DNA of 64,000 nt from assembly GCA_032622095.1 (NCBI GenBank), contig CP136068.1, positions 52,012,443-52,076,442 of the forward strand. The letters run 5' to 3'. The stretch is from Siphonodentalium dalli (lineage: Eukaryota > Mollusca > Scaphopoda > Gadilida > Siphonodentaliidae). The translations under genes and the position numbers were made by a program. Numbering within the stretch: the first letter of the stretch is position 1; every line of letters starts with the position of its first letter. Below the pieces are notes generated by a model, which did no database searches, was not told where the DNA came from, and worked only from the letters and a program-made list of their open reading frames with translations. Below are positions 1,901-61,621 of this stretch, piece by piece.

Positions 1901-1954
1901 ACATTTCCAGATAAACAAAGATGATTAATTCCAGAATAGAAAATCCGGAAAAAA

Positions 1955-4195: not shown

Positions 4196-4199
4196 GATC

Positions 4200-4931: not shown

Positions 4932-4967
4932 CTTGTTTGAATTTGTCTCATCTGGTTCTTCAGCAGG
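4932..4967 (-). CDS. ZPR1: ZPR1 exon: acidic linker between the two zinc-finger modules
   Basis: On the minus strand TTTTCAG|CCTGCTG...AACAAG|GTAATT bounds a 36-bp exon reading PAEEPDETNSNK. ZPR1 proteins carry an acidic linker with this pattern (human has a PAEKPEEED-like stretch) between the first conserved module and the second zinc finger. Two further copies of the exon with its flanks lie at 9547-9582 and 9765-9800. Which copy is spliced cannot be told from sequence alone. This one and the 9765-9800 copy keep both splice sites. Confidence 0.65.
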
Positions 4968-5281
4968 CTGAAAATTAATAAGAATAAATATTGATGAGGA
5001 TTTTCTGCAATGTTTTAATAATGAATGTGTCAATGACACTGTAGCTCAACTTAGGTAGGGGAATAATTTAATGGTTGACAGTAAATGGAGGAATAGGAAA
5101 GGTGCTAATTGAAATGTCTAACCTGCGCCAAAGGATTTAGTGATGCAAAGAGTAAAATACAAGATGGCTGCTGGTGGCCATTGTTTTTGGCCAATTGACC
5201 CCAAAAGGACTCGTTCCCATCTACGTATAATTGTTAACATCCATGACAAATTTTATGAAGATCTGACCAAAGCTACGACCT

Positions 5282-6815
5282 ACAAATTTCATGATGATCA
5301 GACGAACAGTACGACCTGTAGACCGCGCCAATGGATTGAATTTTGAAATCCAAGATGGCCGCTGGCAGCCATGTTTTTTGGCCGAATGACCCCACAATGA
5401 TTCGTTCCCATCTACATGTCAATGTCAACATTCATGACAAATTTCATAAAGATTAGACCAAAGGTACAACCTGTAGCCCGTGCCAAAGGATTTAGTCATG
5501 CAAAGAGTAAAATCCAAGATGGCTGCTGGCGGTCATGTTTTTTGGCCGAACGACTCCAAAATCACTCGTTCCCATCTACATGTCAGTGTTAACATCCATG
5601 ACAAATTTAATAAAGATCAGAACAAAGGTATGACCTGTAGCCCATGCCAAAGGATTTAGTCATGCAAAGAGTAAAACGCTGGTGGCCATGTTTTTTTACC
5701 GAATGACCCCAAAACGACTCGTTCCCATCTACATGTTGTTGTTATAATTCATGACAAGTTTCATGACCATCTGACCAAAGCTACGACCTGTAGCCCGCAC
5801 CAAAGGATTTAGTCATGCAAAGAGTAAAATCCAAGATGGCTGCTGGCGGCCATGCTTTTTGACCGAATGACCCCAAAACGACTCGATCCCATCTACATGT
5901 CATTGTTATCATTCATGACAAATTTCATGATGATCAGACGAACAGTACGACCTGTAGCCCGCGCCAATGGATTGAATTTTGAAATCCAAGATGGCCGCCA
6001 GCGGCCATGTTTTTTGGCCGAATGACCCCACAATGATTCGTTCCCATCTACATGTCAATGTCAACGTTCATGACAAATTTTATAAAGATTAGACCAAAGG
6101 CAACCTATAGCCCGCGCCAAAGGATTTAGTCATGCAAAGAGTAAAATCCAAGATGGCTGCTGGCGGCCATGTTTTTTAGCCGAACGACTCCAAAATCACT
6201 CGTTCCCATCTACATGTCAGTGTTAACATCCATGACAAATTTCATAAACTTCCGACCAACACAACGACCTGTAGTCCGCGCCAAAGGATTTAGTCATGCA
6301 AAGAGTAAAATCCAAGATGGCTGCTGGCAGCCATGTTTTTTGGCCGAACAACCCCAAAATGACTCGTTCCCATCTACATGTCATTATTAACATCAATGAC
6401 AAATTTCATGATGATCAGACGAACAGTACGACCTGTAGCCTAATGTATTGAATCTTGAAATCCAAGATGGCTGCCAGCGGCCATGTTTTTTGGCCGAATG
6501 ACCCCAAAATGACTCGTTCCCATCTACATGTCAATGTCAACATTCATGACAAATTTCATAAAGATCAGACCAAAGGTACGACCTGTAGCCCGCGCCAAAG
6601 GATTTAGTAATGCAAATAGTAAAATCCAAGTTGGCTGCTGGCGGCCATGTTTTTTGGCCGAACGACCCCAAAATCACTCGTTCCCATCTACATGTCATTG
6701 TTAACATCCATGACAAATTTCATGATGTAACGATCAAAGCTACGACCTGTAGCCCGCGCCAAAGGATTTAGTCATGCAAAGAGTAAAATCCAAGATGGCT
6801 GCTGGCGGCCATGTT
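5282..6815 (+). repeat. Higher-order repeat, copy 1 (second copy at 7360-8893)
   Basis: About 1.53 kb of the array is repeated with an exact 2078-bp offset. Private variants recur: gtaaaacgctggtggcc at 5671 and 7749, and caacctatag at 6101 and 8179. The pair looks like a recent block duplication inside the array, because even the odd truncated units are shared. Confidence 0.85.
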
Positions 6816-7359
6816 TATTGGCCGTACGACCCCAAAATGACTCGTTCCCATCTACATGTCAATATTAACATCAATGACAAATTTCATGATGATCAGGCGA
6901 ACAGTACGGTCTGTAGCCCGCGCCAATGGATTGAATCTTGAAATCCAAGATGGCTGCCAGCGGCCATGTTTTTTGGCCGAATGACCCCAAAATGACTCGT
7001 TCCCATCTACATGTCAATGTCAACATTCATGACAAATTTCATAAAGATCAGACCAAAGGTACGACCTGTAGCCCGGGCCAAAGGATTTAGTTATGCAAAG
7101 AGTAAAATCCAAGATGGCTGCTGGCGCCCATGTTTTTCGGCCGAACGACCCCAAAATCACTCGTTCCCATCTACATGTCATTGTTAACATCCATGACAAA
7201 TTTCATGATGTTCCGATCGAAGCTACGACCTGTATCCCGCGCCAAAGGATTTAGTCATGCAAAGAGTAAAATCCAAGATGGCTGCTGGCGGCCATGTTTA
7301 TTGGCCGAACAACCCCAAAATGACTTGTTCCCATCTACATGTCAATATTAACATCCACG

Positions 7360-8893
7360 ACAAATTTCATGATGATCAGACGAACAGTACGACCTGTAGC
7401 CCGCGCCAATGGATTGAATTTTGAAATCTAAGATGGCCACCAGCGGCCATGTTTTTTGGCCGAATGACCCCACAATGATTCGTTCCCATCTACATGTCAA
7501 TGTCAACATTCATGACAAATTTCATAAAGATTAGACCAAAGGTACAACCTGTAGCCCGCGCCAAAGGATTTAGTCATGCAAAGAGTAAAATCCAAGATGG
7601 CTGCTGGCGGCCATGTTTTTTGGCCGAACGACTCCAAAATCACTCGTTCCCATCTACATGTCAGTGTTAACATCCATGACAAATTTAATAAAGATCAGAA
7701 CAAAGGTATGACCTGTAGCCCATGCCAAAGGATTTAGTCATGCAAAGAGTAAAACGCTGGTGGCCATGTTTTTTTACCGAATGACCCCAAAACGACTTGT
7801 TCCCATCTACATGTTGTTGTTATAATTCATGACAAATTTCATGACCATCTGACCAAAGCTACGACCTGTAGCCCGCACCAAAGGATTTAGTCATGCAAAG
7901 AGTAAAATCCAAGATGGCTGCTGGCGGCCATGCTTTTTGACCGAATGACCCCAAAACGACTCGATCCCATCTACATGTCATTGTTATCATTCATGACAAA
8001 TTTCATGATGATCAGACGAACAGTACGACCTGTAGCCCGCGCCAATGGATTGAATTTTGAAATCCAAGATGGCCGCCAGCGGCCATGTTTTTTGGCCGAA
8101 TGACCCCACAATGATTCGTTCCCATCTACATGTCAATGTCAACGTTCATGACAAATTTTATAAAGATTAGACCAAAGGCAACCTATAGCCCGCGCCAAAG
8201 GATTTAGTCATGCAAAGAGTAAAATCCAAGATGGCTGCTGGCGGCCATGTTTTTTAGCCGAACGACTCCAAAATCACTCGTTCCCATCTACATGTCAGTG
8301 TTAACATCCATGACAAATTTCATAAACTTCCGACCAACACAACGACCTGTAGCCCGCGCCAAAGGATTTAGTCATGCAAAGAGTAAAATCCAAGATGGCT
8401 GCTGGCAGCCATGTTTTTTGGCCGAACAACCCCAAAATGACTCGTTCCCATCTACATGTCATTATTAACATCAATGACAAATTTCATGATGATCAGACGA
8501 ACAGTACGACCTGTAGCCTAATGTATTGAATCTTGAAATCCAAGATGGCTGCCAGCGGCCATGTTTTTTGGCCGAATGACCCCAAAATGACTCGTTCCCA
8601 TCTACATGTCAATGTCAACATTCATGACAAATTTCATAAAGATCAGACCAAAGGTACGACCTGTAGCCCGCGCCAAAGGATTTAGTAATGCAAATAGTAA
8701 AATCCAAGTTGGCTGCTGGCGGCCATGTTTTTTGGCCGAACGACCCCAAAATCACTCGTTCCCATCTACATGTCATTGTTAACATCCATGACAAATTTCA
8801 TGATGTAACGATCAAAGCTACGACCTGTAGCCCGCGCCAAAGGATTTAGTCATGCAAAGAGTAAAATCCAAGATGGCTGCTGGCGGCCATGTT
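7360..8893 (+). repeat. Higher-order repeat, copy 2
   Basis: Partner of 5282-6815 at +2078 bp, with only scattered substitutions. It diverges sharply near 8894, where the unit reads cgaacaactcc instead of cgtacgacccc. Confidence 0.85.
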
Positions 8894-9546
8894 TTTTGGC
8901 CGAACAACTCCAAAATCACTCGATCCCATCTACATGACAGTGTTAACATCCATGACAAATTTCATAAACTTCCAACCAAAACAACGACCTGTAGCCCGCG
9001 CCAAAGGATTTAGTCATGCAAAGAGTAAAATCCAAGATGGCTGCTGGCAGCCATGTTTTTTGGCCGAACGACCCCAAAATCACTCGTTCCCATATACATG
9101 TCATTATTAACATCAATGACAAATTTCATGATGATCAGATGAACAGTACGACCTGTAGGCCGCGCCAATGGATTGAATCTTGAAATCCAAGATGGCTGCC
9201 AGCGGCCATGTTTTTTGGCCGAATGACCCCAAAATGACTCGTTCCCATCTACATGTCAATGTCAACATTCATGACAAATTTCATGAAGATCAGACCAAAG
9301 GTACAACCTGTAGCCCGTGCCAAAGGAAATTGTTGACGGACACACGGACACACGGACGACGGACGCCAAACCATGGCAATAGCTCAAACTTACAAAAGTA
9401 AGTTGAGCTAAAAATCTGCCATTGTATAAGCTCTGTAAGGCTCTACAAATTAATCCAAATTTGATTTGATTCTTGATTCTTGATTCTTGATTATTTAGCC
9501 CATGACATTGTATTCAGTGAAGTAGATATCTGATTCATTAAATTAC

Positions 9547-9859: not shown

Positions 9860-11692
9860 GTGTCAATGACACTGTAGCTCAACTTGGAAAGGGAATAATT
9901 TAATGTATTACAGTCAATGGAGCGATTAGGAATGTGGAAAGTTGAATGTCTAATACTAGTTTATAGACATGAAGAGAAAAGTAAAATCCAAGATGGCTGC
10001 TGTCGGCCATGTTTTCGGCCGAATGACCCCAAAATGAGTCGTTCACATCTACATGTCATCGTTAACATCAATGACAAATTTTATGATGATCAGACTAAAG
10101 GTACGACCTGTAGCCCATGCTAAAGAATTTAGTCATACAAAGAGTAAAATCCAAGATGGCTGCTGGCGGCCATGTTTTTTGGCCGAATGACCCCAAAATG
10201 ACTCGTTCCCATCTACATGTCATTATTAACATTCATGACAAATTTTATGATGATCAGACTAAAGGTACGACATGTAGCCTGTGCTAAAGAATTTAGTCAT
10301 ACAAAGAGTAAAATCCAAGATGGCTGCTGGTGGCCATGTTTTTTGGCCGAATGACCCCAAAATGACTCGTTCCCATCTACATGTCATTATTAACTTTCAC
10401 GACAAATTTTATGAAGATCAGACTAAAGGTACAACCTGTAGCCCGCAAAGAGTAAAATCCAAGATGGCTGCTGGCGACCATGTTTTTTGGCCGATTGACC
10501 CCAAAATTACTCTTTCCCATCTACATGTCATTGTTAACATCCATGACAAATTTTATGATGATCAGACTAAAGGTACGACCTGTAGCCCGTGCTAAAGAAT
10601 TTAGTCATACAAAGAGTAAAATCCAAGATGGCTGCTGGCGGCCATGTTTTTTGGCCAAATGACCCCAAAAGTACTCGTTCCCATCTACATGTCAATATTA
10701 ACATCCATGACAAATTTCATGATGATCAGACGAACAGTACGAACTGTGGCCCGTGCTAATGGATTAAATTTTTAAATGCAAGATGGCTGCTGGCGGCCAT
10801 GTTTTTTGTCCGAATGACCCCAAAATGACTCGTTCCCATCTACATTCCAATATCAACAGCCATGACAAATTTTATGATGATCAGACTAAAGGTACGACCT
10901 GTAGCCCATGCTAAAGGATTTAGTCATACAAAGAGTAAAATCCAAGATGGCTGCTGGCGGCCATGTTTTTTGGCCGAACGACCCCAAAATGACTCGTTCC
11001 CATCTACATGTTAATATTAACATCCATGATAAATATCATGATGATCAGACAAACAGTACGACCTGTAGCCCGTGCCAATGGATTGAATTTTGAAATCCAA
11101 CATGGCTGCCAGCGTCCATGTTTTTTGGCCGTATGACCCCAAAATGACTCGTTCCCATATACATGTCAATGTCAACATTCATGACAAAATTCATAAAGAT
11201 CAGACCATAGGTACGACCTGTAGCCCACGCCAAAGGATTTAGTCATGCAAAGAGTAAAATCCATGATGGCTGCTGGCGGCCATGTTTTTTGGCCGAACAA
11301 CCCCAAAATCACTCGTTCCCATCTACATGTCATTGTTAACATCCATGACAAATTTCATGAAGTTCCGATCAAAACTACGACCTGTAGCCTGCGCCAAATG
11401 ATTTAGTCATGCAAAGAGTAAAATCCAAGATGGCTGCTGACAGCCATGTTTTTTGGCCGAACAACCCCAAAATGACTCGTTCCCATCTACATATCAATAT
11501 TAACATCCATGACAAATTTCATGATGATCAAACAAACAGTACGACCTGTATCCCGCGCCAATGGATTGAATTTTGAAATCCAAGATGGCCACCAGCGGCC
11601 ATGTTTTTATGCCGAATTACCCCAAAATGACTCGTTCCCATCTACATGTCAATGTCAACATTCATGCAAAATTTCATAAAGATCAGACCATT
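9860..11692 (+). mobile_element. Second pearl/HINE-like element, ~11 units, right end missing
   Basis: It starts with the same left end as the element at 5027 (gtgtcaatgacac, tagctcaacttgg) and holds about 11 units of ~160 bp. It breaks off inside a unit at about 11692 into attgtaattgtaattg simple repeat. Its units are more diverged from one another than those of the first element, suggesting independent arrays rather than one split array. Confidence 0.75.
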
Positions 11693-12684: not shown

Positions 12685-12799
12685 CTGCAAAACAATAGCA
12701 ATTCATTAATCTCCCATTTATAGTTAACTAAAATGTCTGTTCTGAAATTATATTTAGTTTCTAATACACATTGAATTGATATAGAGATTCCCACCAAAT

Positions 12800-14671
12800 A
12801 AATAGGGTAGGGAAAACTTATCCCATATTAATAGGGTAGGGTAAACTTAACCCATATTAATAGGGTAGGGTAAACTTACCCCATATTAATAGGGTAGGGT
12901 AAACTTATCCCATATTAATAGGGTAGGGTAAACTTATCCCATATTAATAGGGTAGGGTAAACTTATCCCATATTAATAGGGTAGGGTAAACTTACCCCAT
13001 ATTAATAGGGTAGGGTAAACCTATCCCATATTAATAGGGTAGGGTAAACTTATCCCATATTAATAGGGTAGGGTAAACTTATCCCATATTAATAGGGTAG
13101 GGTAAACTTATCCCATATTAATAGGGTAGGGTAAACTTATCCCATATTAATAGGGTAGGGTAAAGTTATCCCATATTAATAGGTAGGGTAAACTTATCCC
13201 ATGTCAATATGGTAGGGTAAACTTATCCCATATTAATAGGGTAGGGTAAACTTATCCCATATTAATAGGTAGGGTAGACTTATCCCATATTAATAGGGTA
13301 GGGTAAACTATCCCATATTAATAGGGTAGGGTAAACTTACCCCATATTAATAGGTAGGGTAAACTTACCCCATATTAATAGGGTAGGGTAAACTTATCCC
13401 ATATTAATAGGTAGGGTAAACTTATCCCATATTAATAGGGTAAACTTATCCCATATTAATAGGTAGGGTAAACTTATCCCATATTAATAGGGTAGGGTAA
13501 ACTTATCCCATATTAATAGGGTAGGGTAAACTTATCCCATATTAACAGGTAGGGTAGACTTATCCCATATTAATAGGGTAGGGTAAACTTATCCCATATT
13601 AATAGGGTAGGTTAAACCTACCCCATATTAATAGGTGGGGTAAACTTACCCCATATTAATAGGGTAGGGTAAACTTATCCCATATTAATAGGGTAGGGTA
13701 AACTTATCCCATATTAATAGGTAGGGTAAACTTACCCCATATTAATAGGGTAGGGTAAACTTACCCCATATTAATAGGGTAGGGTAAACTTATCCCATAT
13801 TAATAGGGTAGGGTAAACTTATCCCATATTAATAGGGTAGGGTAAACTTACCCCATATTAATAGGGTAGGGTAAACTTATCCCATATTAATAGGTAGGGT
13901 AAACTTACCCCATATTAATAGGGTAGGGTAAACTTACCCCATATTAATAGGGTAGGGTAAACTTATCCCATATTAATAGGGTAGGGTAAACTTATCCCAT
14001 ATTAATAGGGTAGGGTAAACTTATCCCATATTAATAGGGTAGGGTAAACTTACCCCATATTAATAGGGTAGGGTAAACTTATCCCATATTAATAGGGTAG
14101 GGTAAAGTTATCCCATATTAATAGGGTAGGGTAAACTTATCCCATATTAATAGGGTAGGGTAAACTTATCCCATATTAATAGGTAGGGTAAACTTACCCC
14201 ATATTAATAGGTAGGGTAAACTTACCCCATATTAATAGGGTAGGGTAAACTTATCCCATATTAATAGGTAGGGTATACTTATCCCATATTAATAGGGTAG
14301 GGTAAACTTATCCCATATTAATAGGTAGGGTAAACTTATCCCATATTAATAGGGTAGGGTAAACCTATCCCATATTAATACAGTAGGGTAAACTTACCCC
14401 ATATTAATAGGTAGGGAAAACTTATCCCATATGTATAGGTAGGGTAAACTTATCCCATATTAATAGGTAGGGTAAACTTATCCCATATTAATAGGTAGGG
14501 TAAACTTACCCCATATTAATAGGTAGGGTAAACTTACCCCATATTAATAGGTAGGGTAAACTTATCCCATATTAATAGGTAGGGTAAACTTATCCCATAT
14601 TAATAGGGTAGGGTAAACCTATCCCATATTAATAGGGTAGGGTAAACTTACCCCATATAAATAGGGTAGGG
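12800..14671. repeat. ~29-bp minisatellite, about 64 copies
   Basis: The unit is agggtagggtaaacttat plus cccatattaat, 29 bp, with a common 27-bp variant lacking GG. Each unit contains GGGTAA-ac-TTACCC or a near form, so single strands can fold at every repeat. The array resumes at 16258-16306 after an inserted element. It lies in ZPR1 intron 5, between exons 5 and 6. Confidence 0.95.
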
Positions 14672-14674
14672 TAA

Positions 14675-25889: not shown

Positions 25890-26259
25890 GTGGCAGGGCA
25901 GTGCTAAGATATTTTCTCAAAAAGGCCAATAAATAAATAAAAATGCTAGATTTACATCCCCTCCCGACTTTATTTTTAGTCCCTTCCTCAATTTTTTTTA
26001 TTTGGACATCTTTTTATGTAAACCTTTTTCTTATGCCTTAACTTTCAAATTACATTTCAATGACCCATTAATCAGTCTACTTTGTTATCTAATTGGACAA
26101 TCTAAATCACCTTGTATTATATAAGATAGGATACTGCTTCAATATCTAGAACCAAGAATAAAATCATATAAAAAATAAAATTAATTCGCCCGGCCCATTT
26201 TCTGAAAAAGTTGGATGTAAATCTAGCAATTTATTTATATTGCCCTAATGGCCTGCCAC
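25890..26259. mobile_element. 370-bp MITE with inverted ends
   Basis: gtggcaggg... and gctagatttacatcc (25945) are mirrored by ggatgtaaatctagc (26213) and gcctgccac (26251-26259). The arms are ~70 bp with indels. The left end contains TAGCTCGAGTGG, a match to a Pol III A box, but no B box follows, so I do not call a SINE. It lies in ZPR1 intron 3. Confidence 0.55.
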
Positions 26260-26561
26260 CCATCACTTTGATGATGTCAAAAATATTGAAAACAATGAAA
26301 GGCTAGAAATCATAGGTGTTTTTCTGCCATATGGGTTATCTAGTGCTCTCAGTGTCGACAATATTGTTATTTTTGGAGAAAATTTCTCATGATCACTATT
26401 ATTTGGTAAAGAGACATAGAGTGAAATTGCCATCACTATTATCAATTTTAGCCAAAAATCCCACCCATCACTATTGGTAGACACCCTAGAGTACACTCAT
26501 TAAATTGACATGTCTATTGCTGAGTGGTATACAATATTTTCAAATGAAATTAGATATCCAC

Positions 26562-26646
26562 CTCCTTTTGATGGCGGAATCTCGAAATCCAGTTCAGGTA
26601 TCTTCACTGTCGCAGTGTTAGTCCTCACAATTTGTCTGTTCAAACC
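26562..26646 (-). CDS. ZPR1: ZPR1 exon 3
   Basis: TTTACAG|GGTTTGAAC and AAAGGAG|GTGGAT bound 85 bp reading GLNRQIVRTNTATVK, then IPELDFEIPPSKG. The IPELDFEIP core is a diagnostic ZPR1 motif (it occurs after each of the two zinc fingers in the family). Exon 3 ends in phase 1 and joins exon 4 as G|AG. The donor GTGGAT is not a strong one. Confidence 0.93.
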
Positions 26647-27821
26647 CTGTAAATAACAAGACAGTCAATGACTGTGGGTCGCTCACCAGACAGCAAAGAC
26701 TGATAAGACTGGGACTCTGGAGACCACAACAGTCAGAACTTTTCATAATCACTTTAAAAGAAATAGCTCTAAACAGGATATGTGGCTAGAGAGACTTCAC
26801 GTATATATAGATTGGTGAAAATCCACCTTGAAATTACCAAATGTACACTACTGATCACCCCCCCCCCCCTCTCCTCCAGTTCAACAAGTCCCCTCCCGAC
26901 CGGGCTACAGACTCCCAAGTCTTAGGTTGGAATTTCACAACTGACACCTCAAACTTTCTCAATTGTTGGAAATTTTCAATCTCACAAGCGCCTTTTTCTA
27001 AAACCATTTAGACATGTCTGAAGCCCAATTATCCATGGACCCAAAACACAATACATGTATGTCAGATTAATCAGTCAGGTGGTTCCAAGGTAGATGTTTT
27101 AATGAATTTGGTATTTCAATGATTTTATTAGACACAAAAGTGTTAACTCCCCATAGCCCCGCTATTTCTTGACAGGTTGACCTCATTTTAACAAATCTGA
27201 ATCTCAGTCACTAAAGGATCCTCCTGATTGCTCCATACATATAGTTATGTCCCTGGTCCCACCCTATTTAACCTGGTGACCCATCTGAATAAATTTGAAT
27301 CCCAGACACCAAAGAACCCTTCATACATATGATAAATATCAGTAAAATAGACCTGATGGTCCTTGTGAAGGAAGCATATTAAGAGGTCAACTGTCCTTCG
27401 TTTGGCCCCTATTTGAACAGGTGACCCCATTTAAAAAAATCTGAATTGCAGTCATGGAAGAACATTCCATGCTAAATAAGCCAACTAGTTCTTGCAAACA
27501 TATTTTAAGAATTACTATGTAGTGAAATAGTTAAGTCTCTGGCTCTGCCCTTATTTGACTTTGTGATCCCATTTTCACAAAGCTGTCACCCAAGGTAATT
27601 TCATACCAAATATAAGAAAAATAGGCCGTTTGATTATTGCATAGAAGACACATCATGAATTACTATGGAGAGAAAGTGTAAATGTAGCTGGCCTTGCACC
27701 TACTTGACCTGGTGACCCTGATTGAACAAATCTGAATCACAATCACCAAAGAAGCAGCCTGCAAATAGTGTGCTATTCCTACATTGTATGTGCCTGGCCT
27801 CAAGCAACACAATGTATTGTA

Positions 27822-27962
27822 CAATCAAGCCTTGAAATAGTGTGATAGTGTGTCTGTCATTTCCATAATGAGGTCCCCCAGAGGGTGACTTTAGTGACGC
27901 TATCCTGCACAGTGGGCTAGCATCACTAAATTCACCCTCTGGGGACCTCATTCTGCTAAGAC
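27822..27962. mobile_element. Palindromic MITE related to 643-854
   Basis: aatcaagccttgaaatagtg ... gagggtgactttagtgacgc / gcatcactaaattcaccctc. It is a single inner palindrome of the Mutator-like foldback, with one outer end preserved. Confidence 0.65.
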
Positions 27963-28157
27963 CCTCAACTGCTATGGCAGACCTAGGATAAGATTGAAGT
28001 TCCCCAGTTGGAAGTTGATGTTCACCCATTGGGCACCTCAATTATGAATTTTATCTTCTGCAAATTCGGGGATATAGAAACTTCCTAGAAGGGAAATGTA
28101 ACTAAAAACAATGTTAATTTGATACTATAGATACCTCCCAGAAGATGAGGCCTAAGC

Positions 28158-28264
28158 AAAATGAGGTCTCCAGAGGGTGAATTTGGTGATGCTAGCCCAC
28201 TGTGTGGGATAGCATCACTAAATTCACCCTCTGGGAACCTCATTTTGCAAATGTCAGACACACT
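28158..28264. mobile_element. Palindromic MITE, second relative of 643-854
   Basis: aatgaggtctccagagggtg ... caccctctgggaacctcatt, centred near 28204, with the trailing word gcaaatgtcagacac shared with the copy at 643-854. Confidence 0.65.
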
Positions 28265-29102
28265 AAATTCAGGCAGTTTGTTTAAAATTGCTAGCAGTAT
28301 GTTTATACAAGCTGTCAGTGACATATTATTCTAATCTAGATTAATGACCTGTGTTTCTCTCTGTTTATCCACAAAGAGATATCTGCAACTTTAATAGAAC
28401 AGGTATTAAAGTTGGAAGCTGGAAATGATATCCGTTGGAAGGGATGTTGGTTGGGTGCAGGCCACTGCAGGGTGGGGGTGGGTCTGGGCCATGTGGGAGG
28501 GGGGATGGGTAATGGAATATTTCTGTAATTTCAGAAGATTAAAGATTAAAGTTTCATAACTCTGCAGATGTTATAATGGTGTCACTTTTTTCAAATTTTA
28601 TAAAATGATTAAAAAAAAATTTGTTTGTTAATTTGAGTATGGTGAAAATTCAAAAAATCTGAATTTGACCAAAAAAAAAATTGTTTTAAGTTATGTCACT
28701 GGCTCCGCCCACATTCGACCCAGTGACCTCATTTGAACAAATCTGAATAACAGTCCCCCAAGGACCCTTTGTACCAAATATGAACCCATTCGGCCAAATG
28801 AAATTTGAGAAGAAGTCGTTGTAAGAATTACAGAGTTATGGCCCTGGCTTCGCTACTATTTGACCCAGTGTCCTCATTTGAACAAATCTGAATGAGAGTC
28901 ACCTAGGGAATATGATCCAATTCGGTCTTACGGTTCCAGAGGAGAAGATGTTCACAGAATTGTTGACGGACGGATGGACGGACGGATGGATGGACGGACG
29001 AGGAGTGATGACTATAGCTCCACCGGAGACTTCGTCTCAGGTAAGCTAAAAACCAGAACTAGAATTGTTTGTTCATTTGGGAGTCAAATGACACTGGATA
29101 AG

Positions 29103-34920: not shown

Positions 34921-35179
34921 ATGGGAAATTCGGCCTCTGGGAAACCCCAGAGTTCTAGTTCTACGGCAAATGCGAGCTCAAATTTGGCAAAGGAATCAGG
35001 CGTGCCGGCACCACCAACAGTTGAACCAGTAAAGTCAGCATTTCCTGAGCCACCGATGTCAGAAACGGCATCAACACAGCAGTCTGCACAACCACCGCCG
35101 CCTTATCAGCAACCTGAACCAAATCCGTTGTTTGTGAATAATCCAGGAACTTTTGAAGATCTGCACAAGGCATGCAAAG
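34921..35179 (+). CDS. TOMM40: TOMM40 exon 1: start of the mitochondrial outer-membrane import pore
   Basis: ATG at 34921 opens MGNSASGKPQSSSSTAN, followed by a Ser/Pro-rich linker and NPGTFEDLHKACK, ending at AAAG|GTGACA in phase 1. NPGTFE.(L/C)H..CK is the Tom40 signature at the end of the variable N-terminal extension, just before the barrel. Tom40 is a ~19-strand beta-barrel that forms the protein-conducting channel of the TOM complex in the mitochondrial outer membrane. Animal Tom40 proteins commonly begin MGN with a Pro-rich tail, as here. The next exon restores CKEIFP. The open frame beyond 35179 is intronic. An MGxxxS start also fits N-myristoylation, which is untested. Confidence 0.95.
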
Positions 35180-35679
35180 GTGACATTTTGTATTTACCCT
35201 CTCCCAACCAATCCTTTTTGGGAGCAAGTCATTTCGTACCCTACTTTGGACTAACCAGCTTGTACCCTCCGAAAAAAGTCAACTCGTACACGATTATATG
35301 ATTATGAGTCATCTCGTAACCGATTAATCGGATTATGTCAATTTATGAGTCATTTCCTACCTTCTGATTTTATTTAGGCTGCAGACCCATTTCGCTGTGT
35401 ATGAGGCCAAAAGGAAGAATACCTGAGTTTAGGGTAACATGAAGGAAAAAAACAGAGGCGGGCGTGCGGTACTTATTTTTTCATTTTATTTTTCACGGGG
35501 GATAGTATTTAAGTATTTGTGCCTTCTAATCGTCTGCCAGTGTCACTCGTATAAAGCTTGGGCAAGTCATTGTCACACTAATCAATGTCATGGTAGCTTT
35601 AAATTTAATCAGTTTAATGGTGTTACAGAAGTTCAATGACATGTATACAGCATGATATTAAATGATATTATATATAGAA

Positions 35680-36308
35680 CTAGAAGGTGACCCGACTTCG
35701 TCCGGGCTTTGACCTTGAATTGACCATTTTGAAGGTCAAGGTCAGTTCGGGGTCACAATTTGACCCGTCGAAAACACTCCCCCGATAAAAGTATTCGTAG
35801 GTATCAAATTTCGTCGAAATCCGTTAATTGTTTAATTTATTTTGAGTTAATTCTGCCTTTTTAATCAAGAGACATGATGGTAGCCGTCCCGTGATGGTAC
35901 CCGACCCTAAAATAGGTACGTTTGTGGGTACCCGTTTCAAGGTGAAGATCACCTCGGGCGGAAAGCCCTAAGTACGTCACACAAGTGACAACACGCTCAT
36001 GTCTGGATGCAGTCTTACATGCACACGCCCAGATGTAATAATCACATTACACACATGCGCTCTTTATCGACGACACTGCGGATACGAACGCTCTTTAACT
36101 ATCAACGCGATTAACCCCACCGTGCCAATGGCGGTAATTTTTGTGACTGGGGGTGGAGAATGGGTGCTCTAACGTTCTCAGAAGCGATGCGATGCCACTT
36201 CATCTGGTATTTTACCCTTAGATAGGAAGTTTGGGCTCAATCCGTCCGGCAGTTTTCGAGTTCATCGCGATCACACACACACACATATCTTCCAAAATAT
36301 ATAATAGA
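35680..36308 (-). mobile_element. 629-bp Helitron-like element, minus orientation
   Basis: On the minus strand it begins TCTATTATATATTTTGGAAG, followed by GT repeats, and ends with the hairpin CCCGGACGAAGTCGGG and CTAG after about 6 nt. It sits between A and T, the Helitron target. The same family forms the chain at 43159-47663. No Rep/helicase gene is present. Confidence 0.8.
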
Positions 36309-37499
36309 TAAGTGTCTAGTGTTGGAAATTAAACAGTTTATGTTCACGCTGATGCTCCAGGCCAAATCCTACGAGTGGACATATTACTGTTCAATTTCCC
36401 ACACAAGACACTTATGATATTTTGTTTATCCACCGACTCGAATACTAAGAAATTTTGCGAAATATTCAACTCAGAAGGTGAATTTAACAAGAGTTCCTCC
36501 ATTGGAAATGGCACATACATGCGGCAAGGCGAACGTGACGTACAGAATTATTTTTAATCTGACATTTTATTACTATGTCTTTTTCTGTCAGTTCAGAATC
36601 CGTGTGGTACCGGTTCACGCACGACAACATGTCTGTGCTATATAGCGATTCTTTGAAAATGTGACATAAATTGAAAAAAATAAAACTCTGCCTCTATCAT
36701 ATTCCTATATGATTTAAGTTATATGAGATATCCAAATTTAATAATCTGAAAATTTTGTCATTGTAACTAATTCCGTTGTATTAAAAACAATTGTTGATGA
36801 CATGGTATAATTTTTTTTAGTAATTCTCTGTTTTTTTTACTTTAATTAAAAATAATCAGAACTTGTCAGTTGTCCACTATTCATATGTGTTATCCTACAC
36901 GTATGTTACCAATAGATCCCATCTAAGAGTTTTAAAAAACATTACATCAAAATTATCGATCAGTTCCTGTTTCAGGGGCATGAGTTTTCCACCCCACCCC
37001 CAATGTCCCGTACAACACTTTTATGAACAAAAGTTATCATTGTTTTCAAACAACAGATCAACAATCCATACCAGATCAAATCTTCTTACCATATAAGGTG
37101 CAAACCATAGTATTAAGAGCATTTTCCATTATACTGGCATTATTATAAGATTATTATACATTTAAAAATGTCCCGTACAACACTATCTATGGTGTTGTAT
37201 GGGACATGTCCCGTACAACACCAGGAAAAATCAATCGTTCCATTTACTAAAATGTCAATTTTCAAATACTAACAAATGCACCTCACATTATGTACACTTG
37301 TTGTTAATATAATAATGGTAAGTAGTTTGTAATTATTTGTATTTAACATAACTGACCAAGGCACTACTTGGGTTAATATCCTTGTGGTCCAACTATAATA
37401 GTATACCACATGTCAAATTTGGTATGGTAATAGATATCTGTACACATTGGATGATCATATATAACAGTGGATATCAATTCATGCATTAGAAAATAATGC

Positions 37500-38060
37500 A
37501 TACTAAATTAACCACCATGGCACTTCAATGGTTAACTAGCTTGCTGACTAAACTGAATTACAGTGTAGCAATATATTTTGAATAAAATTAACCCCTACAT
37601 TTTCAGCCTTGATGTTTATCATCCAAAATAAGGTTATTTTGACAAAATGTCAACTCCAGGGTGAAAAAATAAGTTATGTATCATTGTGTCAAATCTGTGT
37701 AATACAATAGGAATAGACCAGTTCACTTTTAAGTGAAAACTGGCGTATGAAAGTACCAGCCATAGCATTGCAATGGTTAACTGACATGTAGTGATAAATA
37801 ACTGTGTAGCAATATATTGAATGAAATTTAACCCTTACAGTTTTCAGTTTTGATGTTGGTCACCCAAAATGAGGATATGTTGACAAAATGTCAACTTCAG
37901 GATATAAAATATGTTGTGCATCATCGTCTCAAGACTTTGTAATGAAATATAGCAATAGACCGGTTAGCTTTTAAGTGAAAACTGGCATATGAAAGTACCA
38001 GCCATAGCATTGCAATGGTTAACTGACATGTAGTGATAAATAACTGTGTAGCAATTATGT
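37500..38060. repeat. 242-bp tandem repeat, ~2.3 copies
   Basis: catagcattgcaatggttaa recurs 242 bp apart (37761 and 38003), with a more diverged copy from about 37500 (atggcacttcaatggttaac). Shared text includes gtgtagcaatatattgaat-like words and tgttgacaaaatgtcaactt. No coding frame is kept between copies. Confidence 0.8.
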
Positions 38061-38069
38061 GGCAAACTT

Positions 38070-38900
38070 GACTGAAATTGAGAATTTGAATTCATTTGGA
38101 GTTCTGGCCTACTTTGAGTAAGGTGGCATTTGATCTGAAGAAGTAACTTGATTCAGGATTTATTATGGATGATATATCACATTATCTGAATTGGATATGT
38201 TGATGCATAGACCTAACTTTAGTCAAAAATGTAAAAACAAACAACAACAAAAACGATTTATTCTCTTTTTGCACATTTTGCTGTGAAAGCACACACTAGT
38301 ACCATATACCTAGTAATTGATTTAAATGATTTAAACTATTGAAATAACTATAGATAATTATATCCAAATGAATTAATTTTAAAGTTGATTGTTATCTAGA
38401 GTTACATTTGTTATATCAAATAAAATTGTTTATTTGAATATGATCTGGTATTGGTTATTTTCTACAGTATAGGCTATATTGTTACATAATATCTTCAACT
38501 TTCTCTCATTGAATGGAATCTGCTATTAAAACTGAACAAGTGCAGCAGTACTTAGGGTTTAGACAATATAATATAATAAAACATAATGCCAAGATTAAAT
38601 ACTAAATTCTAATGTGTATAATTATAGATCTATGTTATGCCAGGTTTGTGGCATCTGTAATTTCTGTATTTAGTAGGCACTTGAATTTAAATTATAGCCT
38701 GAATATTCCAATATCACACTCAGTCATAGCTTCAATAATACAGAGTATTCATACACACTAATTTCAGTGTATCTATAATTCTAAAGCACACATCATTGCA
38801 GTGTATCTAAATCCTTCTAAATCAGTTCTTGCATTCTTGCCATGAAAGGAATGAGAGAAAATTGAAGCTTTTATGTATTACAGTTGATATAATTTGAGAA
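38070..38900. other. AT-rich stretch without recognised feature
   Basis: Very AT-rich, with stops in all frames. It separates the two clusters of the TGTCCCG motif. Confidence 0.5.
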
Positions 38901-39989
38901 ATATGCTAAATGTCCCGTACGACACCTGGATTTTGTCCCGTACAACACTAATTCAACAAAAAAACAGTAAAATAGTATTTTACATAGAAATCTAGTTTAC
39001 ACTTCTATTGTTGAACATTATTTACCAAAATGTTTAACATATGCATTAGTTTTGCACACTTTACTATTAGAAATGGGCAAAATGTGGAGCAGTGACAAAA
39101 ATGTCCTGAACAACATATTTTCTTTGTCCCGTACAACACCGCTGTTTATTTGCTACCATGCCAATTTATCTGAATTTTGAAAAAAAATCATGTTTTCCAT
39201 TATAAAGAGCAATCTTTCCTATCTTAACATTTTATAATTTGAAGGACTTAATTATGCACATCTAACAGAAATATTGCTAAATAGTTGAGTACCCTAATAA
39301 TCATGTCACAAACATGTCCCGTACTACACCCAACTATTATGCCATATTATAGAAAAAATCTTTGCTCAATATCATGAACTATGATTCCAAGAGTTTGACA
39401 TAGGAATGAGTGATAATTAAACACAAAATATTGTCTGCAAACTTCAATCAATTAATCGCCAGAAGCTGGAGTGTTTTCAACATGTCCCGTACAACACCAA
39501 AATAATCGCCCTATAGTTGACAGGTGCCATGTTTCTATTCTGATTCATATGAACGCATTTGTGAAGTTTAATAGCTAAAACGCAGGATCTATCCGCACAC
39601 GGAAGTGTTTCCGCCATATTCAATCGGCAAAATATCCGGTTACTTTCGATTTGCTAGTTAATACATATCGCGTGTTTTCTGGTTTCCGCTTTCGAGAAAT
39701 CGGCGAGGTTTGCCGAACAATGACGAGGGAATACGAATATACTACAACAACAATGACAGCACTTCCGTTTTTCGTGAATTGACGATATTTGCAAGGAAAT
39801 GGTTTACTTGTTTAAGCTAATTCCGTAGTCGCGAATTCCTAATTACCAAAAAATAAAATGAAGTCGGAGGAAATTTTTGAAAAACGATAAAATGGAATTT
39901 GGCGGCAGGTTTTGAGTAGGGGCGGGCGGGTTACCCTAAACACAGGTATTCTTCGTTTTGGCCTGATATATGATCGACGAAGTATATAA

Positions 39990-53340: not shown

Positions 53341-56300
53341 TTAGCTCAACTTACTTTTGTAAGTTTGAGCTATTGCCATGGTTTGGCGTCCGTCGTCCGT
53401 GTGTCCGTCAACAATTTCCTTTGGCGCGGGCTACAGGTTGTACCTTTGGTCTGATCTTCATGAAATTTGTCATGAATGTTGACATTGACATGTAGATGGG
53501 AACGAGTCATTTTGGGGTCATTCGGCCAAAAAACATGGCCGCTGGCAGCCATCTTGGATTTCAAGATTCAATCCATTGGCGCGGCCTACAGGTCGTACTG
53601 TTCATCTGATCATCATGAAATTTGTCAGTGATGTTAATAATGACATGTAGATGGGAACGAGTGATTTTGGGGTCGTTCGGCCAAAAAACATGGCTGCCAG
53701 CAGCCATCTTGGATTTTACTCTTTGCATGACTAAATCCTTTGGCGCGGGCTACAGGTCGTTGTTTTGGTCGGAAGTTTATGAAATTTGTTATGGATGTTA
53801 ACACTGTCATGTAGATGGGAACGAGTGATTTTGGAGTTGTTCGGCCAAAAAACATGGCCGCCAGCAGCCATCTTGGATTTTACTCTTTGCATGACTAAAT
53901 CCTTTGGCGCGGGCTACAGGTTGTACCTTTGGTCTAATCTTCATGAAATTTGTCATGAATGTTGACATTGACATGTAGATGGGAACGAATCATTGTGGGG
54001 TCATTCGGCCAAAAAACATTTAGATTTCAAAATTCAATCCATTGGCGCGGGCTACAGGTCGTACTGTTCGTCTGATCATCATGAAATTTGTCATGGATGT
54101 TAATATTGACATGTAGATGGGAACGTGTCATTTTGGGGTTGTTCGGCCAATAAACATGGCCGCCAGCAGCCATCTTGGATTTTACTCTTTGCATGACTAA
54201 ATCCTTTGGCGCGGGCTACAGGTCGTAGCTTTGATCGGAACATCATGAAATTTGTCATGGATGTTAACAATGACATGTAGATGGGAACGAGTGATTTTGG
54301 GGTGGTTCGGCCGAAAAACATGGCTGCCAGCAGCCATCTTGGATTTTACTATTTGCATGACTAAATCCTTTGGCACGGGCTACAGGTCGTACCTTTGGTC
54401 TGATCTTTATGAAATTTGTCATGAATGTTGACATTGACATGTAGATGGGAACGAGTCATTTTGGGGTCATTCGGCCAAAAAACATGGCCGCTGGCAGCCA
54501 TCTTGGATTTCAAGATTCAATCCATTGGCGCGGGCTACAGGTCGTACTGTTCGTCTGATCACCATGAAATTTGTCATTGATGTTAATAATGACATGTAGA
54601 TGGGAACGAGTGATTTTGGGGTCGTTCGGCCATAAAACATGGCTGCCAGCAGCCATCTTGGATTTTACTCTTTGCATGACTAAATCCTTTGGCGCGGGCT
54701 ACAGGTCGTTGTGTTTGTCGGAAGTTTATGAAATTTGTCATGGATGTTAACACTGACTTGTAGAAGGGAACGAGTGATTTTGGAGTCGTTCGGCCAAAAA
54801 ACATGGCCGCCAGCAGCCATCTTGGATTTTACTCTTTGCATGACTAAATCCTTTGGCGCGGGCTATAGGTTGCCTTTGGTCTAATCTTTATAAAATTTGT
54901 CATGAACGTTGACATTGACATGTAAATGGGAACGAATCATTGTGGGGTCATTTGGCCAAAAAACATGGCAGCTGGCGGCCATCTTGGATTTCAAAATTCA
55001 ATCCATACAGGTCGTACTGTTCGTCTGATCATCATGAAATTTGTCATGAATGATAACAATGACATGTAGATGGGATCGAGTCGTTTTGGGGTCATTCGGT
55101 CAAAAAACATGGCCGCCAGCAGCCATATTGGATTTTACTCTTTGCATGACTAAATCCTTTGGTGCAGGCTACAGGTCGTAGCTTTGGTCAGATGGTCATG
55201 AAATTTGTCATGAATTATATCAATCACATGTAGATGGGAACGAGTCGTTTTGGGGTCATTCGGTCAAAAAACATGGCCACCAGCATTTTACTCTTTGCAT
55301 GACTAAATCCTTTGGCGTGGGCTACATGTCATACCTTTGGTCTTTTCTTTATTAAATTTGTCATGGATGTTAACACTGACATGTAGATGGGAACGAGTGA
55401 TTTTGGAGTCGTTCAGCCAATAAACATGGCCGCCAGCAGCTATCTTGGATTTTACTCTTTGCATGACTAAATCCTTTGGCGCGGGCTACAGGTCGTAGCT
55501 TTGATCGGAACATCATGAAATTTGTCATGGATGTTAACAATGACATGTAGATGGGAACGAGTAATTTTGGGGTGGTTCGGCCGAAAAACATGGCTGCCAG
55601 CAGCCATCTTGGATTTTGCTATTTGCATGACTAAATCCTTTGGCGCGGGCTACAGGTCGTACCTTTGGTCTGATCTTTATGAAATTTGTCATGAATGTTG
55701 ACATTGACATGTAGATGGGAACGAGTCATTTTGGGGTCATTCGGCCAAAAAACATGGCCGCTGGCAGCCATCTTGGATTTCAAGATTCAATCCATTGGCG
55801 CGGGCTACAGGTCGTACTGTTCGTCTGATCATCATGAAATTTGTCATTGATGTTAATAATGACATGTAGATGGGAACGAGTGATTTTGGGGTCGTTCGGC
55901 CATAAAACATGGCTGCCAGCAGCCATCTTGGATTTTACTCTTTGCATGACTAAATCCTTTGGCGCGGGCTACAGGTCGTTGTGTTGGTCGGAAGTTTATG
56001 AAATTTGTCATGGATGTTAACACCGACATGTAGATGGGAACGAGTGATTTTGGAGTCGTTCGGCCAAAAAACATGGCCGCCAGCAGCCATCTTGGATTTT
56101 ACTCTTTGCATGACTAAATCCTTTGGCACGGGCTACAGGTTGTACCTTTGGTCTAATCTTTATGAAATTTGCATTGAATGTTGACATTGACATGTAGATG
56201 GGAACGAATCATTGTGGGGTCATTCGGCCAAAAAACATGGCTGCCAGCGGCCATCTTGGATCTCAAAATTCAATCCATTGGCGCGGTCTACAGGTCGTAC

Positions 56301-57391
56301 TGTTCTGTTCGTCTGATCATCATGAAATTTGTAGGTCGTAGCTTTGGTCAGATCTTCATAAAATTTGTCATGGATGTTAACAATTATACGTAGATGGGAA
56401 CGAGTCCATTTGGGGTCAATTGGCCAAAAAAAATGGCCACCAGCAGCCATCTTGTATTTTACTCTTTGCATCACTAAATCCTTTGGCGCAGGTTAGACAT
56501 TTCAATTAGCACTTTTCCTATTCCTCCATTTTACTGTCAACCATTAAATTATTGTCCCCCGACGTTTCCGTCGGAGGACTATAGAAATGACCCTCGTCCG
56601 TCCGTCCGTCCGTGCGTCCGTGCGTCCGTGCGTCCGTCACGTCCGTGCGTCCGTGCGTCCGAGATTGGGTACCTTCATGGTGTAATCAACTCCTCCTACA
56701 GTTTTAAACGTAGAGATTTGAAACTCTGGGATATTGTTCCTAACATGTTGGTGATTTGCAACATCTATAAAGCTAATCAAAAATATAATTTTTTTCCATA
56801 TTTTTGGGGGGGTTTTCGACTTAGAAAATTTGGAACATTTTTGCCTTTTGGATGAGATTGGGTACCTCATGGTGTAATCAACTCCTCCTACAGTTTTAAA
56901 TGTAGAGATTTGAAACTCTGGGATATTGTTCCTAACATGTTGGTGATTTGCAACATCTATATAGCTAATCAAAAATATCATTTTTTCCATATTTTTGGGG
57001 GGTTTTCGACTTAGAAAATTTTGAACATTTTTGCCTTTTGGATGAGATTGGGTACCTTCATGGTGTAATCAACTCCTCCTACAGTTTTAAATGTAGAGAT
57101 TTGAAACTCTGGGATATTGTTCCTAACATGTTGGTGATTTGCAACATCTATATAGCTAATACAAAAATATCATTTTTTTCGTGTTTGCATGCATTTGTTC
57201 ATCGGGTTGTTTTGTCCAAGAAATTTTGCGGTGGTTTGCAACATCTATATACTGTATAACATTGTTGCAAATAGTATCCTACAAACAAATCCAATCATGA
57301 AGTTTACCACTCGAGTCGGGGGACATGTGGTCTGCGACCTTTTATTCCCCTACCTAAGTTGAGCTACAGTGTCATTGACACTTTCATTTAC
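53341..57391 (-). mobile_element. Third pearl/HINE-like element, ~19 units, inverted and interrupted
   Basis: Minus-strand copy of the element type at 5027. Its right end (agctcaacttac / gtaagtttgagct hairpin, then cgtccgtcgtccgtgtgtcc) is at 53341-53420. About 19 units of ~160 bp follow, then the left end (acatttcaattagcactttt ... ctacagtgtcattgacac) at 56490-57391, split by the insertion at 56554-57341. Blocks at 54120-54900 and 55390-56170 match at an offset of 1270 bp. It lies in TOMM40 intron 1. Confidence 0.82.
56554..57341. mobile_element. 788-bp element inserted with a TTATT target duplication
   Basis: GTCCCCCGAC starts it and its inverse lies at 57315-57324. TTATT occurs on both sides (56549-56553 and 57342-57346). 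The empty site is visible in the sister element near 5056-5076 (ccattaaattattcccctac when reversed), which proves the borders. Internal layout: hairpin CCGACG-TTTC-CGTCGG, a (GTCC/GTGC)n tract, and ~190-bp tandem units starting at 56661, 56854 and 57044. Confidence 0.88.
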
Positions 57392-59510: not shown

Positions 59511-59615
59511 AAAGAATTGAATGTACATAAGATTCTAAATTAAAGAGATTGAAGTCATTGTTCACTTTCAAGGCATTGTTCAACATTTTATATAGCTATG
59601 CACTTTTGTCAACAG

Positions 59616-59773
59616 AAATATTCCCTCAGCCTTTTGATGGAGGCCGACTGACTATGAATACTGGCCTGAGCAGTCATTTCCAGCTAAGTCATACAATCAC
59701 CTTGGGACCACAGCAGACGTCTGGATATAGGTTTGGAGCTACATACATAGGAACACATTACGGTCCCCAGGAG
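59616..59773 (+). CDS. TOMM40: TOMM40 exon 2
   Basis: GTCAACAG|AAATATTC and CAGGAG|GTGAGT bound 158 bp. With the last G of exon 1 it reads E-IFPQPFDGGRLTMNTGLSSH and on to ITLGPQQTSGYRFGATYIG, ending THYGPQE. It aligns throughout with vertebrate Tom40 (EVFPVQMEGVKLVVNKGLSN, then HFQVNHT; YHFGVTYVGT). This is the amphipathic lead-in and the first beta-strands of the barrel. Other upstream AGs in the frame region are excluded by phase. It ends in phase 0. Confidence 0.95.
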
Positions 59774-61165
59774 GTGAGTGTCCACCTTTTACTGCATAGT
59801 GCGAAGTGTGCGATTTTTGTATAGTTGAATGCTTTCCTTCTATCAATAAAATTTTAGATTTACAAGCCACCAATTTTGAATATTGGAACATTTCTATAAT
59901 ACAGTACGTGGGATGTTTGGTTGAAATTTTTACTTCACTTGAAAACACTTCAGGTAGAAATTTTGCAGGTACCAGTCATCGGAAAATTCTTGGAGGATGT
60001 AAGTGGAACTTGTCAGAGGGGATAAATGTTATAACATTTTCTGGACCAAAGAAACTCTATATCTGAGTTGGAAGTGGAAGTCTGTGTCTGGTGTACCCAT
60101 ATGAAGTGATTCTAAAGGCCTGAAAATTATTGTTGAAACCATTTTCCTACTAATCGACGTTGACGCGATTATTAAATTAATCGATGCAGAGATCTATTTG
60201 TCGGGAAAAACCACTACTTATATGCTATCAAGACAGCAGTGCCTTTGCACTGCCAAATTTTATGGAAAATGTAGCGGTTAATCAATCGGAACACTTAATT
60301 AACTTGTTAAAGCCCTATTGAATTGTTCATTTGATGATGCCAGCATGGTCTCTGCCGTCAGTCATGCATGGACGGTTAACTCAGTGACCTGAACTGAACT
60401 CAAGTGCAAGTTTCTTTTATGTTGATCATCAAAGACTTGAAAGGATCGGTGCCGATTGCCACAGTGTTTATTTCGGTGTGACATAATTGGTCAGTGATAA
60501 ATTGTATTTATTTAGTTTATTGGAAAAACAGTGTAATACTAGAATAGTCATGCAATAAAATGGCTCCAAGAATATACGAAACATTTGTCCACATTGGGAA
60601 ACGATCGATGTTTGTTCTGAAGTAAGCAACAGTAGAGCGGATTCAGTGGAACATTTTCGTTAAAAAAACGCTGTTGCCTGGCCACCAATTCATGTGCGTT
60701 GCACTTTTGTTTTCAGAATCAAATTATGGTGCTGTCCTGCTCCAGCATGTGTATCTATCAATCACTATCATGTAGATACATTCATTGGATCATTAGATGG
60801 TAGATTAATGATAGACCATGGACAAATGTCCTTTAGCGGTATTGACATGTAGCAGTTACCACCAACAATCACGGCATTTGAACATTCTAAAACAGAAAGT
60901 TGGACACTAAAAGGTTCAAAACTGCAATACAATACGGCCCATGTTGTACCTATGTGCATAGAAACGGGAAATTTCAAGAGGTGTTCCACTAGTATTTGAT
61001 TATCCATGTCCCGACTAGACTGTAGTCGACTCTTGAAAATCCCTAACCGTTTCAACACTACTCAAAATCAGTAATTAAAACTACCATGGGGATTTATCAT
61101 TTTCACTTCAGTAATAAACGTTATGTTGGTTCATGTTATCTTATCTTATTTACCTATCATTTCAG
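59774..61165 (+). other. TOMM40 intron 2, nothing recognised
   Basis: 1392 bp with GTGAGT donor and CATTTCAG acceptor. No repeat family of this window was recognised inside. Confidence 0.6.
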
Positions 61166-61267
61166 GCATACCCACTGTTATTAGGAGATATTGATCCTAA
61201 TGGAAATCTAAATGCCAACCTTATACACTCATTAACAGATAATATATTCATCAAATGTAGAGCACAA
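61166..61267 (+). CDS. TOMM40: TOMM40 exon 3
   Basis: CATTTCAG|GCATACCC and GCACAA|GTAAGT bound 34 codons reading AYPLLLGDIDPNGNLNAN, then LIHSLTDNIFIKCRAQ. This matches [20 protein letters not shown] of vertebrate Tom40, including the GD.D..G.LNA turn. Phase 0 at both ends. The following exon of the family (a VNWQVDGEYRG-like stretch) was not found before 64000, so the rest of the gene lies to the right. Confidence 0.95.
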
Positions 61268-61621
61268 GTAAGTACCAATGATATTTGTTCTTGTCATTCA
61301 TTAATGGTCACATGTTTTGACTTTGACCACTTGAAGTTAATGTTAAAACAAGTTGCGGAGATACATGGTTGGATATAGGCTCCAAGCCATCAATGTGACT
61401 CTAAGTTATCATCAATAATCAGATACAATAATTTATATGTTCTGCCGATTTAAAATTTGTTCGAAAGAATGATCACCACATATTGCCAAATTCCCCTATT
61501 GATCATTTTGTAAAGTTTTACGGTGTTCACTGTCCAGTAACATGAAGAAGCTTTCCCTTTGGGAGACACAAAACATGACCATGGTTGACCCACCCGGCAG
61601 ATAAGTAGAGCATTTTTCACT

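Follow-up and report, generated by a model that had tools for sequence, protein, structure and literature searches.

What keeps a 16-bp word almost unchanged at ten places within 2.5 kb of DNA, when the sequence between these places is unrelated? The question is raised by a stretch of the genome of the scaphopod mollusc Siphonodentalium dalli (C8:52012443-52076442; "the window" below is the whole of this stretch, 64,000 nucleotides), in which the word TGTCCCGTACAACACC is clustered at 37004-39498. Exons of TOM40 at 34921-35178, 59609-59755 and 61163-61297 place the cluster within the first intron of that gene. The ten words are probably recognition sites for the transposase of a family of cut-and-paste DNA transposons, of which the window holds one short copy.

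The word cluster and the transposon that carries it

Nine copies of the word with at most one mismatch are present in the window (sites 1-6 and 8-10 below), compared with a mean of 0.33 in shuffled sequence, and a count of nine was reached in none of 100 shuffles. The tenth site is degenerate, with 2 mismatches over 14 bases and 4 over all 16. Nine of the ten sites are on the plus strand; the sole inverted site abuts its neighbor, and the two form a head-to-head pair (37191-37222) around GGGACATGTCCC. The sites belong to two arrays of the transposon, one near its right end and one farther from its left end:

37004..37019, plus strand: site 1, far array, starting at base 360 from the left end
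37169..37184, plus strand: site 2, far array
37191..37206, minus strand: site 3, far array, inverted
37207..37222, plus strand: site 4, far array, head-to-head with site 3
38911..38926, plus strand: site 5, near-end array
38934..38949, plus strand: site 6, near-end array
39102..39117, plus strand: site 7, near-end array, degenerate (4 mismatches in the window copy; 2-3 in each of the remaining six copies of subfamily A, defined below)
39125..39140, plus strand: site 8, near-end array
39315..39330, plus strand: site 9, near-end array
39483..39498, plus strand: site 10, near-end array, 13 bp from the right end

An earlier reading of the stretch, made from its letters only (the sequence-only reading), had described ten scattered and nearly unchanged copies in both orientations, one pair of them around GGGACATGTCCC, with unrelated sequence about them. 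This description stands, with the one site degenerate. Among 56 local comparisons of the segments between sites, two gave p = 0.025, which is about the level of chance. In a survey of the 329 12-mers found five or more times within 3 kb in the window, the word alone had background flank identity (0.26-0.27 for its four overlapping 12-mers, versus 0.41 for the next lowest 12-mer). The cluster is real and unusual for the window, and the 14-mer TGTCCCGTACAACA and its complement do not occur in the literature searched. The six right-hand sites match a lattice of ~190.5 bp with 23-bp pairs, with an equal fit in none of 2000 random placements, in a test picked post hoc with the data already seen; this lattice reflects the near-end array of the element.

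The sequence-only reading had also proposed a genome-wide count of the word, taking equal frequency outside transposons as evidence against its interpretation. Across the genome (2,226,750,531 bases, 9 contigs) there are 428 matches with at most one mismatch, compared with 32 for the reversed pattern, which served as the control. Exact places are listed for 100 of the 428 matches, ending within contig C5; by our count they represent 34 loci, 27 of which were read (20 regions of 9.9 kb, three of 3 kb and four of 1.6 kb, the last chosen for having a single exact word among the matches listed). Arrays, defined as three or more sites within three mismatches, are present at 26 of the 27 loci; in the loci read, the word is not equally frequent outside such elements. 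The remaining locus (L040) has a solitary word and no similarity to the element; by our estimate, chance would place roughly one such exact word in 2.2 Gb. Long stretches of 24 of the 27 loci align with one of two subfamilies of the element, A or B, while the arrays at L038 and L039 share just 47-75 bp with either. L038 has five sites of the word, two of them with three mismatches, at spacings of 22, 163, 170 and 166 bp, and ends in GAATCGCCC; L039 has spacings of 190, 23, 176 and 22 bp, and an element end was looked for there and not found.

The element in the window is delimited as follows:

36645..39511, plus strand: non-autonomous DNA transposon copy, 2867 bp, a short form of subfamily A that lacks the coding region, bounded by alignment with other copies
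36641..36644, no strand: left target-site duplication (TSD) TATA, equal to 39512-39515
39512..39515, no strand: right TSD, TATA
36645..36650, plus strand: left terminal inverted repeat (TIR) GCGATT, lacking the leading GG of other copies
39504..39511, minus strand: right TIR, reading AATCGCCC on the plus strand
37511..38055, plus strand: internal tandem repeat of ~242 bp, two copies, within the element

Alignment with other genomic copies breaks off at 36645 and 39511. From end to end the window copy is 98.9% identical to L024 and 99.0% to L032 (up to the damaged right end of L032); it is a young, recent insertion. The ends were compared in 18 copies (seven of subfamily A, 11 of subfamily B). 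Most copies start with GGGCGATT and end with AATCGCCC, the window copy being without the first GG, and GGGCGATT or a close variant terminates the copies compared, the right end of L032 being damaged. Three further copies stood outside this comparison: the left-end word was not found in L015 or L022, and L017, which contains pieces of two far arrays, is complex. Exact 4-bp TSDs flank 14 of the 18 copies; L020, L024 and L028 also have a 4-bp TSD if one C or G of the junction run is assigned to the flank, and in L032 the right end is lost. The duplicated sequences vary between copies, and none of the 17 copies having both ends is flanked by TTAA. With its TIRs and 4-bp duplications, the element belongs to the DNA transposons.

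The sequence-only reading had suggested sites for the transposase of an element bounded by 35-bp inverted repeats, or for a host factor. The arrays at 26 of the 27 loci bear out the transposon, while the proposed bounds fail, the real ends being the TATA-flanked ones given above. The inverted repeats in question lie outside the element:

35402..35438, plus strand: left arm of the inverted-repeat pair flanking the insertion
39930..39966, minus strand: right arm of the same pair

With TA the arms are 39 nt long, and they are 92% complementary; the transposon copy at 36645-39511 is nested inside the pair. The sequence-only reading had asked whether the words always fall between this inverted-repeat word and its inverse. 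The repeat word is absent, at up to three mismatches, from all 20 of the other 9.9-kb regions. The pair itself, which has TA at its borders, possibly represents the ends of another element of ~1.7 kb (not counting the insertion). A small foldback with 30-nt arms is located at 36308-36415.

Site geometry in subfamilies A and B

Subfamily A consists of the window copy, L021, L023, L024, L028, L029 and L032, and subfamily B of 11 copies with both ends; there are ten sites per copy in A and eight in B. Measured in bp from the ends, the sites start at these positions:

A, from the left end: 352-362, 517-527, 539-549 (inverted), 555-565
B, from the left end: 342-360, 498-516, 518-536 (inverted), 534-552
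A, from the right end: about -600, -577, -410, -387, -197, -29
B, from the right end: about -409, -385, -196, -29

The outermost site of the near-end array is thus 13 bp from the terminus, with inward steps of ~168, 190 and 23 bp, to which A adds 167 and 23 bp. In the far array the outermost site is ~360 bp from the other terminus, followed inward by steps of ~165, 22 (inverted) and 16 bp in A, and of 156, 20 and 16 bp in B. The positions of the eight sites common to A and B, each measured from the nearer end in the 18 copies, vary by no more than 31 bp (left) and 11 bp (right).

This geometry is retained across considerable sequence divergence. Between A and B, the putative transposases show identities of 48% (363 aligned positions) and 42% (175), and their coding DNA still aligns; in four of six spacer segments the DNA scores like shuffled sequence, and in the remaining two it slightly exceeds the highest shuffle. 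One of three comparisons involving L039 or B, that of L039 with an A spacer, scored above most shuffles (0.7% reached its score). Since A and B, as well as L038 and L039, keep the sites while the spacers are mostly unalignable, the word and its geometry persist longer than most of the non-coding sequence around them. In subfamily B, the fraction of non-consensus bases is lower in the words than in the rest (0.003 vs 0.009 on the left, 0.004 vs 0.028 on the right). In the short B copy L018, a tandem array of ~85-bp units takes the place of the coding region (element bases 861-2580).

The observed/expected (o/e) ratio of CpG is 0.59-0.83 in four long A copies, 0.70-0.86 in the 11 B copies and 0.31-0.33 in three short A copies. 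In the window, the block 36980-39500 has a CpG o/e of 0.12 once the motif is masked, and CpG is kept in eight of the ten words. We considered a methylated block protected at bound sites and dropped the idea; since this CpG-poor block makes up the greater part of the transposon, no special mechanism is required for its edges to fall near the outermost sites. Another strongly CpG-poor stretch (26201-28700, o/e ~0.16) does not contain the word.

Putative transposase and diverged relatives

L021, a copy of 4953 bp, has an intact open reading frame (ORF) of 688 amino acids between the arrays, and L029, L023 and L028 carry close relatives of it with stops in the matched frame or a shortened frame. 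Three aspartates (D365, D447 and D488) stand in conserved contexts common to L046, L048 and L051 and are candidates for a DDD triad; as L046 and L048 are 99% identical, this support counts as two other families. By these residues, we regard the 688-aa protein as a putative DDD transposase. There is no C/DxxH motif between D447 and D488 of the L021 ORF, D488 being a candidate for the third catalytic residue, and no NCBIfam entry matches the ORF. A protein search of the genome gave at least 68 matches, 25-100% identical.

Two relatives that encode proteins about a third identical to that of L021 have arrays of a different word. L051 (33% identical) is an element of 4089 bp with TIRs GGGTCATTCCA/TGGAATGGCCC and the TSD ATAT, and contains eight copies of TGTGACTGACGCAACA with at most two mismatches. 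In one of its arrays, 13 bp separate the outermost site from one end, and the inward steps are 166, 198 and 14 bp; the other begins 358 bp from the other end and continues with 166, 16 and 19 bp. The transposase gene of L051 (element at 992-5080) is oriented opposite to that of A relative to the arrays, and array geometry and gene direction can therefore be uncoupled. In L050 (34% identical), GTAATGTCAGTCACG is found five times without mismatch, with spacings, from the outside in, of 179, 188, 23 and 160 bp. Over 370 amino acids the L050 and L051 proteins are 46% identical, and their words share GTGACTGAC on one strand.

Weighing the explanations

In a cut-and-paste transposon, the words most likely are bound by the transposase and help to unite the ends. 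Under this proposal the transposase would bind the words, binding would bring the two transposon ends together, and the unlike near-end and far arrays may tell the two ends apart; the window copy would be moved in trans by full-length relatives. Precedent comes from the hAT element Herves, whose transposase binds repeated words near the ends (in the part of PMC3143072 consulted), and arrays of subterminal sites are remarked on in the excerpt of PMC11707139 available to us.

Several results weigh against the assignment of the words to a transposase and a conserved spacing. In the young subfamily A, the words are barely less variable than the rest (non-consensus 0.016 vs 0.019 on the left, 0.007 vs 0.009 on the right). 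The 688-aa ORF matches no Pfam family up to E 10 and has no credible relative in PDB (the best match, at E 0.025 with a six-sequence profile, is to a DUF1893 protein); a scan of six related sequences produced three weak Pfam matches with no common theme (best E 0.0037, DUF1481), and AlphaFold2 models from one and from six sequences were unusable (mean pLDDT 36 and 34). L051 has no inverted site, and two of its word pairs overlap (by two bases) or abut; our spacing finder scored it weakly, its arrays being seen through repeated 11-mers and a word scan. A second array, ends and a TSD were looked for in L050 and not found, and, because of their 46% identity and the shared GTGACTGAC, L050 and L051 represent about one change of word, not two. 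Among the six loci of other families scanned, L046, L047 and L048 have no array within flanks of 1.5 kb, and L045 yields just a regular 171-bp tandem. With L046 and L048 99% identical, these negative loci make up at most three families, and the flanks, cut at 1.5 kb, make the missing arrays at L045-L048 weak negative evidence. The spacing finder gave no strong match in eight 4-kb control stretches of the window.

Alternatively, the words could be sites for a host transcription or chromatin factor, carried by the transposon to drive or silence its own gene, for example, and not read by the transposase. The arrays do flank the ORF, with inner sites hundreds of bp from the ends, and the low CpG content of the short A form makes regulation of the element conceivable. 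Yet the distance from the outermost site to the terminus is 13 bp in every one of the 17 copies with a right end, including those without a gene; relatives whose transposases have diverged carry another word at similar spacing; and the word occurs outside an array at one of the 27 loci read. We consider a host factor improbable.

The motifs of REST, p53 and other factors were considered and set aside. An ASCIZ/LC8 promoter was rejected: an LC8 protein has no credible match in the window (best E 0.69). Meiotic pairing centers, as described in the portion of PMC8455136 consulted, were set aside as an analogue.

Still less likely are arrays that descend from eroded tandem repeats (a satellite) within the transposon, the word being the last conserved box. 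In keeping with such an origin are the spacings near 168 and 190 bp, the presence of ~171-bp repeats elsewhere in L045 and L050, an identity at lag 169 that is 2.2-2.7 standard deviations over the mean, and z values of 3.0 (lag 190) and 2.4 (lag 169) in two-letter alphabets. Against it, four-letter identity at lags 190 and 191 equals background, the lag-169 z of 2.2 in the block is below the maxima (2.66-3.61) of seven control stretches, and the sites include spacings of 14-23 bp as well as an inverted copy. Last, regulation of TOM40 as the origin of the array is largely refuted and hardly credible: although exons lie on both sides of the cluster, which would suit a cis-regulatory cluster in the first intron, the same arrays occur in element copies on contigs C1-C5 among the matches listed, and the window copy is a recent insertion, ~99% identical to two others.

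As to repeats more generally, the ~171-bp repeats at L045 3693-4891 and L050 3711-4925 share GAAAATTGGAA and stand beside transposases 43% and 34% identical to that of L021. The first intron of TOM40, a gene for mitochondrial import, is ~24 kb long and repeat-rich. A 164-bp tandem repeat that includes AAGATGGC forms large arrays, in opposite orientations, in the window (5346-9327, 9980-11688 and 53417-56332), and a 29-bp tandem repeat (~66 copies) at 12794-14674 includes a kilobase, from 13001, without CpG and GpC. Beside the right end of the insertion, the CpG-rich positions 39600-39617 hold an ETS-like CGGAAGTG and a YY1-like ATGGCGG (minus strand) and could be a promoter.

Other searches returned little. 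No RNA family reached its gathering score in the window (five weak matches, E 0.2-0.9) and no tRNA was found; a scan for bacterial-type promoters gave 24 hits vs 18.2 expected (standard deviation 4.4). The ten large ORFs of the window have no Pfam match at E 0.01, and ten further stretches yielded just the TOM40 exons and a sub-threshold match (E 0.0028) in a short ORF at 36824-37093. Five viral contigs have one exact word each, and at up to three mismatches the stretches examined contain no second site; no paired word, TIR word or transposase relative was found in viral contigs, no paired word in prokaryote genomes and no relative in phage records.

Relation to known transposons and meaning of the geometry

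Elements of the hAT superfamily make 8-bp TSDs. Those described here are 4 bp long, so the element does not qualify as hAT by this measure, and its ORF has no Pfam match and no C/DxxH motif between the second and the candidate third aspartate. Among hAT elements, short words repeated near both ends, as here, are known from Herves, where the transposase binds them unequally between the ends, and Ac, Tol2 and Tag1 are named beside it as elements with repeated transposase-binding words (from the part of PMC3143072 consulted). The statement in the sequence-only reading that no described element has such sites was therefore too strong. The Herves word is 8 bp long and its bound stretches lie within ~90 bp of the ends (same source and part), whereas a 15-16-bp word extends here over ~600 bp with fixed spacing.

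Sola2 elements have GRG termini and a DDD triad. Our lead for the superfamily is Sola2, a candidate because of the 4-bp duplications, which are given as a feature of Sola2 families together with short TIRs of 12-13 and 21 bp in the part of PMC3627910 consulted. Kolobok elements share with the present one 4-bp TSDs and 5'-RR termini, while the TSD of Kolobok and piggyBac is TTAA, which was not found here. According to the sections of PMC9587614 consulted, hAT, P, MuDR, Kolobok and Dada have a C/DxxH motif between the second D and the last acidic residue, and KolobokP occurs in molluscs, with solo-repeat TSDs of 3-5 bp (a length compatible with the 4 bp here) and with long terminal direct repeats. 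Between D447 and D488 the motif was not found, and no long direct repeats were seen at the termini of L021, the window copy or L051. By their TSDs, hAT (8 bp), piggyBac and canonical Kolobok (both TTAA) do not fit.

The plant element En/Spm (CACTA) has a 12-bp word that is scattered in either orientation across hundreds of bp at each end and is bound by a protein of the element. Its CACTA TIRs differ from those of the present element, with which no shared domain was found. To our knowledge, the geometry described here is stricter than in other elements. The arrays are best read as repeated transposase-binding words near transposon ends, ordinary in kind and strict in geometry.

More tentatively, and on balance doubtfully, these transposases might read a fixed physical ruler, as opposed to loosely placed terminal repeats, perhaps assembled on chromatin: close pairs of words (14-24 bp, roughly 1.5-2 turns of the helix) about one nucleosome (~156-198 bp) apart, with a pattern that differs between the ends. 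The ruler would persist with transposases a third identical, with the word replaced and with the gene inverted (L051). It is drawn from A, B and the sister pair L050/L051, and the pattern was unseen in four other related loci. Spacings of ~167 and 190 bp are nucleosome-sized; their relevance is speculation. If the ruler is true, its constancy despite a replaced word would mean that protein and word have co-evolved within a constant scaffold.

For this family, the case shows that dispersed identical words with unrelated flanks can mark the sites at which the ends of a DNA transposon are assembled, if our reading is right. Subfamilies A and B amount to a natural experiment in which the DNA between sites was mostly replaced and the word and its spacing were retained, and the L050/L051 pair suggests that one word can give way to another with the spacing kept. 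Confirmed binding would make this a test case for how transposase and recognition word co-evolve and for whether spacing of near-nucleosomal size is of consequence, and related elements may be findable by their geometry where sequence search fails.

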